Assembly (NCBI RefSeq): GCF_901521055.1 | Contig: NZ_CABEGA010000001.1 | Span: forward strand, 62,001-126,000 | Source of the DNA: Cellulomonas hominis | Lineage (GTDB): Bacteria; Actinomycetota; Actinomycetes; Actinomycetales; Cellulomonadaceae | Direction of reading: 5' to 3' | Length of the DNA: 64,000 nucleotides | Shown here: positions 4,343 to 6,999 of the stretch, one piece after another | Layout of the letters: each line of letters begins with the position of its first letter | Position numbering within the stretch: the stretch's first letter is position 1 | Notes under the pieces: generated by a model | Told to the model about the DNA's origin: nothing | Databases searched by the model: none | What the model saw: only the letters and a program-made list of their open reading frames with translations | Made by a program: the position numbers and the translations under genes

Positions 4343-5740
4343 TCAGCCGCCCAGCGCCGTGATCAGGACCCGCGCGACCGAGAAGTAGATGATCAGCCCG
4401 GTGCCGTCGACCAGCGTCGTGATGAGCGGGCCCGAGCCGACCGCCGGGTCGACCCCCACGCGGCGCAGGACCAGGGGCAGCACCGACGCGATCAGCGAGG
4501 ACCACACGATGATCGCCGCGGCGGAGACCGCGACGGTCAGCGCGACCTCGCCCCCGACGCCCTGCCACCACGCGCGCAGCCAGCCGGCCCCGGCGATCGT
4601 CACCGCGACCATCACGCCGGTGGTGAGCTCCTTGCGCACCACCCGGCCCGCGTCCCGCAGCCGGACGCTGCCGGTCGCCATCGCGCGGATCACCGTCGCC
4701 GTGATCTGGGTGCCGGCGTTCCCGCCCGCCCCGATGAGCAGCGGCACGAAGAAGCTGAGGGCCAGGACCGTCGCCAGCTCGTCCTCGTACGCCTCCAGCA
4801 CGCTGCCCGTGATCATCGACGCGACGAACAGCACGAGCATCCACACGATCCGCTTGCGCCACAGCAGGAACGGCGAGGCCCGCAGGTACGGCACGTCCAG
4901 CGGCTCCGCCCCGCCCTGCCGGACGGCGTCCTCGGTCGCCTCCTGCTCGACGATCTCGGCGACGTCGTCCGGGGTGAGCACGCCGAGCAGCCGCCCCTCG
5001 TCCACGACGGGCAGCGCGGGCAGCCGGTGCCCGTGCAGCAGCCGGGCGGCGTGCTCCCGGTCCGCGGTGGGCTCGACGGCGACGAGGTCCTCCCGCATCA
5101 GGTCCGCGACGAGCACGCCGGGCGCGGCGAGCACCAGGTCGCGGAACGACACGACGCCGAGCAGGGCGGCACCGGCGGCGTCGGCCGGGGCGGTCGTCAC
5201 GTACACCTCGCCGCTGCGGGCCGTCGCGTCGGGCTGCGCCCGCAGGGAGTCGACGGCCTCCCGCACCGTCATGGTCGGGCGGACGGTCACGACCTCCGGG
5301 TTCATCCACGCGGCGGCCGCCCCCGCCGGCCACGCGAGGAGCCCCCGCACGACGGCGGACCGGGCCACGCGCATGGCCCCGAGCAGCCGGCCGCGCACGT
5401 CGTCGGGCAGCACCCGCAGCACCTCGGCCGCCTCGTCGGCGCCGAGGCTGTCCACCAGCCCGGCACCGACCGCGGCGGGGACCACGAGCAGCACCTCGGC
5501 GGCGGCGTGCGGGTCGAGGGAGCCCAGCAGGTCGGCGGCGGTCGCCGGGTCGAGCAGCCGGACGAGGTCGCGGACCTGCGCGTCGGACAGGTCGGCGACC
5601 TGGTCGGCGCGGGCGCGGCGGTCGGTGGTCGACGCGAGCCAGAGCTCCACGGCGCGCCGGGTGCCGACGGCGACGACGTCGTGCAGGTCGAGGGCGGGCG
5701 CCGGGCGGCGCGCGTGCAGGACGGGGGTGGGCAGGTTCAT
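4343..5740 (-). CDS. mgtE: Magnesium transporter MgtE
   Basis: 465-residue Mg2+ channel/transporter of the plasma membrane. It has the cytosolic helical N domain (residues about 15-120, PDDVRGRLLGAMRVA), paired CBS domains (about 125-255, SLRAQPDATARSGEVYV and LLGVLTPDDVAEIVEQEATEDA) and a C-terminal five-helix membrane domain with the conserved pore-region sequence FVPLLIGAGGNAGTQITATVIRAMATG. I choose ATG at 5740 because AGGAG lies 6 nt upstream; an open frame continues to 5869 without comparable support. It is preceded by an approximately 390-nt leader with its own promoter, an upstream ORF and a long-range inverted repeat, implying control after transcription initiation. Confidence 0.95.
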   Translation of the reverse strand: MNLPTPVLHARRPAPALDLHDVVAVGTRRAVELWLASTTDRRARADQVADLSDAQVRDLVRLLDPATAADLLGSLDPHAAAEVLLVVPAAVGAGLVDSLGADEAAEVLRVLPDDVRGRLLGAMRVARSAVVRGLLAWPAGAAAAWMNPEVVTVRPTMTVREAVDSLRAQPDATARSGEVYVTTAPADAAGAALLGVVSFRDLVLAAPGVLVADLMREDLVAVEPTADREHAARLLHGHRLPALPVVDEGRLLGVLTPDDVAEIVEQEATEDAVRQGGAEPLDVPYLRASPFLLWRKRIVWMLVLFVASMITGSVLEAYEDELATVLALSFFVPLLIGAGGNAGTQITATVIRAMATGSVRLRDAGRVVRKELTTGVMVAVTIAGAGWLRAWWQGVGGEVALTVAVSAAAIIVWSSLIASVLPLVLRRVGVDPAVGSGPLITTLVDGTGLIIYFSVARVLITALGG

Positions 5741-5968
5741 GACGAGCTCCTGACGGGGCGGGCCACGCGACGCGGCGTCCCGGCGCACCGCGGCCGGGAC
5801 CCGGTGCGGCACCGTCATCGGCGCGGCGGCCCGCTGCTGCGGGGCGGCGCGCCATCGGCGGCACGGCACGGGACACCGGTGGGCGGTGGCACGGCGGACG
5901 TCACGGCGCGTCGTCGATGACGGGGGCCGGTGACGGGTGAGGGCGCCGCGCGGTGGCGGCGCGGGTGC

Positions 5969-6059
5969 TCCGTCGACGCCCGTCGACCTGCGCGGCAGGA
6001 GCCGGCGGCCCTCGAGGGCGGCTCAGGCCTGCGCGCGCAGCACGACGGGCGTCGACGGA
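5969..6059. repeat. 17-bp perfect long-range inverted repeat in the mgtE leader
   Basis: Arms 5969-5985 and 6043-6059 are exact reverse complements (17 of 17), separated by 57 nt. In the mgtE transcript the 5' arm is formed by codons 8-14 of the upstream ORF and the 3' arm lies after its stop codon. Ribosome occupancy of the ORF would therefore block the stem. The intervening segment contains a smaller 12-nt palindrome around 6008-6019. Confidence 0.75.
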
Positions 6060-6085
6060 TGCCGACTGCTCGCGGTGTCGTCCAT
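6023..6085 (-). CDS. 20-codon upstream ORF (leader peptide) in the mgtE 5' leader
   Basis: Encodes MDDTASSRHPSTPVVLRAQA. It starts with ATG 6 nt downstream of an exceptionally strong Shine-Dalgarno (GAGGAGGTG), inside the leader between the mgtE promoter and mgtE. It begins about 40 nt after the predicted transcription start and ends 282 nt before the mgtE start. Its codons for residues 8-14 form one arm of a 17-bp hairpin with downstream leader RNA, the arrangement of translation-coupled attenuators. I do not recognise the peptide family. It has two prolines (HPSTP) but is not the proline-rich MgtL type. Function as a leader peptide is inference; the ORF and its ribosome-binding site are visible. 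Confidence 0.6.
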   Translation of the reverse strand: MDDTASSRHPSTPVVLRAQA

Positions 6086-6110
6086 CGCGTCCACCTCCTC
6101 GCCGTCGTGC

Positions 6111-6132
6111 GGGCGGGCCGGCCGGCCCGCCC
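6111..6132. repeat. 22-bp perfect palindrome at the predicted mgtE transcription start
   Basis: Self-complementary G/C-only palindrome centred between 6121 and 6122. It starts 3 bp downstream of the -10 element of the mgtE leader promoter and lies 43 nt after the stop of the iron ABC ATPase gene. It could be a protein-binding operator over the start site, or a rho-independent-like end signal for the iron operon. Confidence 0.6.
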
Positions 6133-6135
6133 CGA

Positions 6136-6164
6136 ACCCTAGACTCCGGCCGGGAGCCTGCCAA
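6136..6164 (-). promoter_or_regulatory. Near-consensus sigma-70-type promoter for the mgtE leader
   Basis: On the minus strand: -35 TTGGCA (6159-6164), 17-bp spacer, -10 TAGGGT (6136-6141). Transcription would start near 6129 and produce an approximately 390-nt leader before mgtE. Confidence 0.7.
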
Positions 6165-6174
6165 CCCGTCCCCG

Positions 6175-6999
6175 TCAGCCCCGGCGCGAGGTCCGGGCGA
6201 GCGGCACCACCAGCGGCGTGCCGGCCTGGGGATCGGGCACGATCTCGCACGCGAGGCCGAAGACGTCCTGCACGAGCCCGGCGGTGATCACCGCGGCGGG
6301 CTCCCCCTGCGCCACGACCGCGCCGTCGCGCATGACCACGAGGTGCGTCGCGTACCGGGCGGCCTGGTTGAGGTCGTGCAGCACCGCGACGACCGTGCGG
6401 CCGTCGTGGTGCAGGTCCTGGCACAGGTCCAGCAGGTCGACCTGGTTCGCGATGTCCAGGAACGTCGTCGGCTCGTCCAGCAGCACGTACCGCGTGTCCT
6501 GCGCGAGGACGAGCGCGAGCCAGACCCGCTGCCGCTGCCCGCCGGACAGGTCGGCGACGGGCCGGTCCGCGAGGTCCGCGACCCCGGTGGCGGCGAGGGC
6601 GGCGTCCACGATGCCGGCGTCCTCCGGGCGCCACTGCCGCAGCACGGAGTGGTACGGGTGCCGGCCGCGGCCGACGAGGTCGCGCACCCGCACCTGGTCG
6701 GGCGCGACGGGCGACTGCGGCAGGAACGCGAGGCGGCGGGCGACCTCCTTGCTGCGGTACGTGCCGATCGGCCGTCCGTCCAGCAGCACCTCGCCCGCGT
6801 CCGGCCGGTGCGTGCGGGCGAGCGCCTTGAGGAGCGTCGACTTGCCGCAGCCGTTGGGCCCGACGATCGCCGTGAACCCCCCGGTCGGCACGTCGAGGTC
6901 CAGGTCCCGCGCCACGACGAGCCGGTCGTACGCCAGGGTCAGCCCCCGCGCCGCCAGGCCCGCCGTCGTCGTCCCCGCGTCGGTCGCCGTCGTCGTCAC
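6175..6999 (-). CDS. Iron-siderophore ABC transporter ATP-binding protein (FepC-like)
   Basis: 274-residue cytoplasmic ATPase powering siderophore-iron import. Walker A is GPNGCGKST, the signature LSGGQRQR, Walker B VLLDEPTTFLD followed by the H-loop VLHDLNQAARYATH. The FecE/FepC class is shown by LPQSPVAPDQVRVRDLVGRGRHPYH. GTG start overlapping the upstream permease stop by 4 nt (GTGA), so it is translationally coupled. Last gene of a four-gene operon (binding protein, two permeases, ATPase) under an iron box. Confidence 0.93.
   Translation of the reverse strand: MTTTATDAGTTTAGLAARGLTLAYDRLVVARDLDLDVPTGGFTAIVGPNGCGKSTLLKALARTHRPDAGEVLLDGRPIGTYRSKEVARRLAFLPQSPVAPDQVRVRDLVGRGRHPYHSVLRQWRPEDAGIVDAALAATGVADLADRPVADLSGGQRQRVWLALVLAQDTRYVLLDEPTTFLDIANQVDLLDLCQDLHHDGRTVVAVLHDLNQAARYATHLVVMRDGAVVAQGEPAAVITAGLVQDVFGLACEIVPDPQAGTPLVVPLARTSRRG

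Follow-up and report, generated by a model that had tools for sequence, protein, structure and literature searches.

Mg2+ sensing by leader peptides has been worked out in enterobacteria. Ribosomes translating MgtL, encoded in the leader of enterobacterial mgtA, drop off at an EPDP sequence when Mg2+ is low, in a system that includes Rho, according to the available text of the report (PMC11282234). MgtQ is an eight-codon ORF between Salmonella mgtC and mgtB, and the same kind of partial text states that its Asp2 and Glu5 lower its translation (PMC8092293). For actinobacteria, the literature that we found describes the M-box riboswitch as the route. In the mycobacterial pe20 Mbox leader an upstream ORF, uORF2, is translated and Rho-dependent termination is reported; the accessible portion of the paper calls the uORF2 peptide (Rv1805A) mycobacteria-specific and its role unknown (PMC12810186). 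A ribosome-protected uORF also precedes mgtE in Mycobacterium abscessus (MAB_2717c), and it differs from the ORF described here in that, in the part of the article at hand, it coincides with an M-box and is termed a VcgB homologue (PMC4974804). Motifs predicted computationally in the leaders of Mg2+ transporter genes, namely an mgtE motif of Thioalkalivibrio (PMC11109978) and a corA motif of Gammaproteobacteria (PMC6429828), belong to other phyla and are presented in the passages available as riboswitch candidates, descriptions that set them apart. Among the papers listed in literature searches, judged there by title and opening of the abstract and including few subscription journals, none dealt with an M-box-free mgtE leader peptide in actinobacteria.

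The mgtE leader of Cellulomonas hominis

The window, a stretch of 64,000 nucleotides from Cellulomonas hominis, carries on its minus strand a gene for a 465-aa magnesium transporter, mgtE (5740-4343; Pfam MgtE 1.7e-30, with CBS and MgtE_N domains). A leader of about 390 nt, counted from the inferred transcript start, lies between the end of an ABC-transporter ATPase gene and mgtE on the same strand. The first-pass annotation had noticed an unusual leader here, and its observation is confirmed: a 20-codon uORF with an ATG start and a TGA stop (MDDTASSRHPSTPVVLRAQA, 6085-6023) follows a strong Shine-Dalgarno (SD) site (GAGGAGGTGG, 6100-6091), and the mgtE ATG at 5740 is 282 nt downstream of the uORF stop. 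The promoter had been called strong. Its hexamers are present, TTGGCA (6164-6159) and TAGGGT (6141-6136) with a 17-nt spacer; the first has counterparts in several orthologues, and near the second the orthologues carry TAGGGT, TACCCT, TACACT, TATCCT or TAGACT. The attribute of strength is not borne out: by our own count 8 of their 12 positions agree with the consensus, and the hexamers are absent from the output of a promoter scan, which returned no consensus sigma-70 promoter in the leader.

The annotation had also found no M-box, and covariance searches agree: nowhere in the window does RF00380 score above its gathering threshold, and in 5700-6180 even a limit of E=10 brings up no match. No Rfam family reaches its gathering score in the window, and relaxing the search of the leader to E=10 gave just two chance-like matches. 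M-boxes do sit in mgtE leaders of the same phylum (L265 and L268); the window differs in lacking one, and the distance from the inferred transcript start to the uORF is only about 45 nt, compared with the 169 positions of the M-box model.

The closest described systems each share part of this arrangement. As in the mgtA leader, a short ORF precedes an Mg2+ transporter gene, its peptide begins with acidic residues (Asp2-Asp3 in the window), and leader conformation would be coupled to translation; the transporter family, the phylum and the peptide (EPDP in MgtL) are different, and Rho is a postulated participant in the window leader (PMC11282234, from the text available). The likeness to MgtQ is that its acidic Asp2 and Glu5 alter stem choice for an Mg2+ transporter, whereas MgtQ is intergenic and not in a leader, frees the mgtB ribosome site and acts on translation, as far as the accessible account goes (PMC8092293). 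With uORF2 the window ORF shares short length, a strong SD and a leader tied to Mg2+, but the window leader is without an M-box, and the published peptide has Pro7 in the text at hand (PMC12810186) where the window peptide has Ser7 and a proline at position 10. As for the codon pattern of the uORF2 type, AGT at codon 6 followed by C in our own reading of nine M-box loci, the window has AGC at codon 6 and AGT at codon 7, followed by CGG.

Conservation of the uORF within Cellulomonas

Conservation among relatives was the test that the first-pass annotation had set for itself, and the uORF passes it. The leader was recovered at 83-85% identity in four further genomes of 58 searched (its own included), and of 81 genomes of the genus 13 contain a close orthologue of mgtE (at E 5.1e-190 or better), while ten others have a more distant mgtE alone. 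We obtained 14 leader copies from 13 Cellulomonas genomes (G208 holds two), 11 of which directly precede mgtE; in the other three (L005, L055, L123) the contig ends before mgtE could appear. One mgtE copy (L070) has no leader element within 1.5 kb, and three (L074, L076, L092) begin at a contig end. The copies were collected by BLAST, by pattern matching and by searching for mgtE, and the SD site is invariant in 14/14 by a conservation script that is itself anchored on this sequence. The frame and stop are kept in all 14, the start is ATG in all except one (TTG), and the length is 19-20 codons. All copies share the peptide core ASSxxPSTPVV, the last quarter of the peptide varies freely, and a 75-nt core of the leader is nearly invariant within the clade. 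The uORF is, judging from this conservation, very probably translated.

Broader searches delimit the element. A degenerate SD-plus-peptide pattern occurs in 11 stretches among 84,980 species genomes, ten of them on Cellulomonas-type contigs, one of which is labelled Cellulosimicrobium cellulans DE0111; the remaining match, in Marinilabiliaceae, looks accidental. Seven of these ten contigs have mgtE downstream and three loci (L126, L127, L129) do not. A covariance model of the 75-nt core, run on 150 genomes of the family, retrieved three clade members at E 2.7e-17 or better and beyond them weak matches only (E 2.5e-4 and above), with some match at E 0.1 or better in 112 of the 150. A 23-nt core pattern matched 43 of 297 genomes of the order, the three mismatch-free matches all being from the Cellulomonas clade, and one 3-mismatch variant recurred. 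The 23-mer GCACCCGTCGACGCACGGCGTGC recurs in more than 10 genomes of the order and may be a conserved coding stretch. Two uORF peptides had no match in NCBIfam. The arms described below and the peptide core are confined to the Cellulomonas clade, and farther out only the start region is alike.

Several other mgtE copies in the genus are worth recording. L089 (G208:C333, Cellulomonas hominis CS1) is an additional mgtE that has a TAG in frame within its aligned portion, and its leader retains the uORF (with the TTG start) and the AGT AGT core. L090 (G231:C519) and L091 (G221:C172) have a second mgtE in tandem, immediately following the first and sharing 58-59% identity with the query, and the leader element is absent from the sequence read for these tandem copies. 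Upstream of the distant Cellulomonas mgtE genes (about 41% identical; L079-L085), a recurring inverted repeat like GTAACCTACGTGACCGTAGGTTAC, seen by eye in the intergenic region, replaces the uORF and possibly represents a repressor operator.

Predicted RNA structure of the leader

Within the uORF, arm 1 (TCCGTCGACGCCCGTCG, 6059-6043) is exactly complementary across 17 nt to arm 2 (CGACGGGCGTCGACGGA, 5985-5969), as had been reported; it had been assigned to codons 8-14, and it actually starts at base 3 of codon 9 and ends at base 1 of codon 15, counting Met as codon 1. The first 12 nt of arm 1 are identical in 13/14 copies. The 12-nt core of arm 2 (GGCGTCGnCGGA) is exact in 11/14 and lies 19-65 nt past the uORF stop, with variants in L077, L089 and L123, the last of which has lost much of arm 2. 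The 17-bp stem is found only in the window and is a 5-bp extension of this conserved core. Conservation of the stem thus extends over about 12 bp; the arms show no covariation across the 14 copies, and arm 1 is unable to covary because it is nearly invariant.

Comparison with shuffled sequences supports the pairing. In the window, pairing between the initial 12 nt of arm 1 and the 120 nt past the stop is better than in 300/300 shuffles. Arm 1:arm 2 beats 300/300 shuffles in 8/14 copies, and at most 1/300 is as good in 11/14; the exceptions are L077 (12/300), L069 (14/300) and L123 (37/300). Folding of 6110-5970 gives -93.6 kcal/mol (z -4.95), equalled by 0/200 shuffles.

A competing helix, P1, would pair GCACGACGG (6110-6102), upstream of the ribosome site, with CCGTCGTGC (6048-6040), which overlaps arm 1. 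The arms are paired in 96.2% of cells; with 0 pairs changed on both sides in 14 copies there is no covariation, and we do not take P1 as a proven helix. When the growing transcript is folded, P1 is predicted to form first (mean pairing 0.40-1.00), and once arm 2 has emerged the arm 1:arm 2 pairing is predicted at 0.69 or more in 9/14 copies, the switch being unclear in L068, L073, L077, L078 and L123. With P3 emerged as well the predicted value is 0.90 or more in 7/14, and L069 and L071 revert. The idea of competing stems is accordingly supported in part, by conservation of the 12-nt core, while the 17-bp version is particular to the window and the predicted switch fails in 5/14 copies with arm 2 out and in 7/14 with P3 out.

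P3, the hairpin GCGCCGC-CACCGC-GCGGCGC (5962-5943), starts 6 nt past arm 2. It was found by script in 12/14 copies and shows compensatory changes, GCGCCGC/GCGGCGC being replaced by GCACCAC/GTGGTGC and by GGCGCTGC/GCAGCGCC; in each of the 14 copies, 0-10/200 shuffles equal the strongest hairpin that follows arm 2. P3 is without a T run, and no intrinsic terminator was found in the leader. A C-rich, G-poor stretch (5974-5845) has a C/G ratio of 1.35-1.90 in 78-nt windows, and the excess of C over G in the window is greatest after arm 2 and P3. By its composition this stretch would suit Rho and may be a loading region.

At the 5' end of the leader, the hairpin P0 (GGGCGGGCC-GGCC-GGCCCGCCC, 6132-6111) reaches a stem length of at least 5 bp in 13/14 copies, in the forms GGGCC/GGCCC, GGACC/GGTCC and GGATC/GATCC. 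It is treated as possible only, because shuffles of this GC-rich stretch often equal it: at most 10/200 do so in just three of 14 copies (L066, L005, L123), and up to 191/200 in L069. As a hairpin in its own right P0 is thus a weak candidate.

The nearly invariant 75-nt core raises the possibility that a small riboswitch, binding Mg2+ or another ligand, surrounds the SD and start of the uORF, which would then be its expression platform. The consensus fold of the core (-27.6 kcal/mol) contains P1 and an imperfect stem over the SD and start, and elsewhere M-boxes precede the same kind of uORF (below), both of which fit such a reading. It is nevertheless unlikely: the 75-nt core is free of covariation, the covariance model returned the three clade members and then weak matches, and the stretch of about 45 nt ahead of the uORF is short. 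Masking of the SD by the uORF had seemed by eye to occur in single examples, before a shuffle test on 18 leaders; in that test, accessibility of the SD was below that of half of the shuffles in 6/18 leaders only, and in the other 12 the SD was no less accessible than with a shuffled uORF sequence, so that masking is rejected as a common theme; the same result counts against the riboswitch reading.

Look-alike uORFs in other actinobacterial mgtE leaders

Short ORFs of the same kind occur in mgtE leaders of the order, the class and the phylum, with peptides that begin MSSDSHSRRH, MSSDSCSHHP, MDDGNSRSTAP, MEDGHSRSTSP, MDTGSSSRHH or MSTDASSPRP, and MRAEPPSRLL, MRSEPPSRRP, MRSEPPSHHP, MSDPSSSPGL or MSEPSSSNGG. 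We defined them by a rule that calls for an SD followed by an ORF of 15-40 codons with AGT at codons 5-8 and then C. The rule is satisfied by 26 of 138 actinobacterial mgtE leaders (15/127 outside the Cellulomonas clade) and unmet in 112; the 138 are not independent, because 11 leaders of the Cellulomonas clade and several near-duplicates are included. Two runs of 100 shuffled sets gave means of 0.38 and 0.43 with a maximum of 2, and there were 0/138 matches in antisense, 0/98 further upstream and 0/98 inside the gene. Requiring AGT exactly at codon 6 leaves 4/138. An earlier first motif, shaped on some of the same leaders, was present in 30/138 (shuffle mean 0.35, maximum 2); the later rule came from the M-box loci and was widened to codons 5-8.

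The peptides of the rule set actually have 15-27 residues. All 18 distinct peptides, counting one corA peptide with the rule set, have an acidic residue at positions 2-5, which the rule did not demand, and acidic density is 0.31 in residues 2-5 against 0.041 from residue 8 onward. The 138 leaders were drawn from matches whose sequence was retrieved, which for the phylum-level search were loci L232-L260; L171, L173, L253 and L256 were left out as partial or truncated, L258, L283, L284 and L289 as repeats of one place, L005, L055, L074, L076, L090-L092 and L123 as contig-end or tandem copies, and L070 was left out also. Outside the 26, we assigned L217, L218, L224, L228, L249, L254, L265, L267, L268, L276 and L087 to the family by eye or by the first motif.

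Two further observations concern these leaders. A fluoride riboswitch (RF01734; L257:188-252, minus strand) lies upstream of an mgtE locus that also has a uORF (MSDPSSSPGLRGLLSPR). In L249, L250, L254, L257, L213 and L223, several uORFs share, after the AGT motif, a stretch like CCGCGCGGCC (PRG, LRG, PRE).

Association with corA and the M-box

The annotation had taken the element to be of a new type. A type without known relatives is not supported: other actinobacteria have a uORF of the same kind behind M-box riboswitches and ahead of corA. We scanned 98 genomes of the class with a bare DNA pattern, GGAGGTG-N3-9-ATG-N15-AGTC, designed after the family had been seen. It matched 13 times against 8 for a backward-read control, so that the evidence lies in what the matches precede and not in their number. 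Five are starts of open frames of 452-507 aa and eight are short ORFs, which comprise five family uORFs and three others (22, 28 and 9 aa). Two of the family uORFs precede mgtE (the window and G535) and three precede a CorA gene (Pfam CorA 6.5e-61 for the L309 protein, with the L304 and L305 proteins alike by reading).

M-boxes were found at nine places in 5 of 148 genomes. At all nine, a uORF that is preceded by an SD and has AGT as its sixth codon begins about 58-103 nt past the aptamer; Bacillus subtilis and Lactococcus lactis supplied control M-boxes for the search, and uORFs were read at these nine places. The peptides are MSPSDSP, MSSSDSP, MSPGHSP, MSSGSSP, MPEGNSQ and relatives, with Pro7 in 8/9 and an acidic residue at positions 2-5 in seven, none in the other two. 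At one locus (L292) the uORF stands before CorA, and at the remaining eight some of the genes that follow are not evident Mg2+ transporters. In an Rfam scan of 35 loci with look-alike uORFs, assigned partly by eye, the M-box is present in two only, L265 and L268, mgtE leaders whose look-alike uORFs (24 and 47 aa, by eye) have AGT at codon 15. The M-box uORFs fit the description of uORF2 given in the available text, with a strong second SD and a proline at position 7 (PMC12810186), and from place, SD and Pro7, and not from a shared sequence record, we infer that they correspond to mycobacterial uORF2 (Rv1805A).

The presence of look-alike uORFs before two unrelated transporter families, together with the near-letter conservation in Cellulomonas, suggests that the Cellulomonas uORF probably helps cells to match magnesium uptake to need.

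Codon-level constraint

The spelling of the uORF is conserved beyond its amino acids. Among the 11 copies with mgtE at hand, 636/674 same-amino-acid pairs (94%) in uORF codons 2-15 use the same codon, compared with 13269/18638 (71%) in mgtE. Ser6 and Ser7 are spelled AGT at 27/28 positions across the 14 copies, and AGT accounts for 0/172 serine codons in ten mgtE genes; CAT makes up 1.8% of histidine codons in those ten genes, yet is codon 9 in 13/14 uORFs. In L123, silent changes (TCG>TCC and CCC>CCG) leave PSTPVV intact. Codon identity is kept and the L123 changes preserve the peptide, so RNA or codon choice and the peptide both seem important, and the uORF seems to be constrained at the codon level (AGT AGT ... 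CAT) and at the peptide level.

Retention of AGT far beyond what serine requires, also at codon 6 of the nine M-box uORFs, could mean that AGT AGT and CAT, read by scarce or wobble tRNAs, report general translation capacity in place of Mg2+ and tune mgtE to growth rate. We regard such codon-driven pausing as doubtful, since AGT is not rare in every host (3/15 serine codons in the mgtE of L250) and the family uORFs among the whole-genome matches precede Mg2+ transporters, which suggests a link with Mg2+. Conservation of the N-terminal core would also suit a small protein that modulates the transporter in trans, as the authors on Rv1805A suggest, the leader position then reflecting co-expression; Rv0115A, a homologue in M. 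tuberculosis, is expressed from a place that is not near any Mbox, by the text at hand (PMC12810186). The freely varying last quarter, the small size of the rule-set peptides and the constraint on codons, not residues alone, make a trans-acting peptide quite improbable. A DNA-level element, with an incidental ORF and inverted repeats that serve as binding sites for a transcription factor, could draw on P0, palindromic DNA beside the -10-like box that is not clearly an RNA hairpin, but is very hard to credit when the letters of P3 change while its pairing stays and SD, frame and stop are kept in 14/14 copies.

Proposed mechanism

Our main reading, to which we give a probability of roughly 55%, is that the mgtE leader peptide belongs to an element that acts in cis and couples the control of Mg2+ transporters to translation. 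Ribosomes would load readily on the uORF, and Asp2-Asp3 followed by AGT AGT, rare in the host's mgtE genes, would make the first dozen codons fragile or slow. At low Mg2+, ribosomes would leave or pause early, arm 1 would be free to pair with arm 2, and polymerase would continue into mgtE. With ample Mg2+, ribosomes would cross arm 1 to the stop, and transcription would end past P3 in the C-rich stretch, probably by Rho. Which of the stems corresponds to the on state is guessed by analogy with MgtL and MgtQ.

The good SD, which is not systematically masked, the acidic precedents of MgtL and MgtQ, the lack of an intrinsic terminator and the C-rich stretch together point to ribosome behaviour at the early codons as the likely sensor, and to the choice of stem together with Rho as its likely output. 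We infer that sensing may work by early ribosome drop-off, as in MgtL, feeding stem choice and Rho termination. Several points tell against this explanation: two acidic residues are a weak destabiliser, and 2/9 M-box uORFs have none at positions 2-5; P1 and the arms lack compensatory changes, and the switch is predicted in only part of the copies; P0 is mostly no stronger than its shuffles; the arms and peptide core stay within the Cellulomonas clade; no intrinsic terminator was found; 112/138 mgtE leaders lack the uORF by the rule; and the backward control of the whole-genome pattern matched 8 times against 13.

More tentatively, and at somewhat less than even odds, Actinomycetota may have in common a class of Mg2+ leader peptides that has not been described before, recognisable by the start, an acidic residue at positions 2-5 and a serine AGT near codons 5-8. 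In this class the ribosome, as it translates, would itself report Mg2+. The peptide would be the constant part, standing alone before mgtE or corA, the M-box an optional front module in some lineages, and mycobacterial uORF2 one member.

If this holds, a phylum-wide peptide before two unrelated transporter families, whether or not an M-box is present, would suggest a role for the mycobacterial uORF, and the idea of the ribosome as an Mg2+ sensor would become testable in a second phylum. The fixation of AGT in high-GC genomes would give that question a concrete handle.
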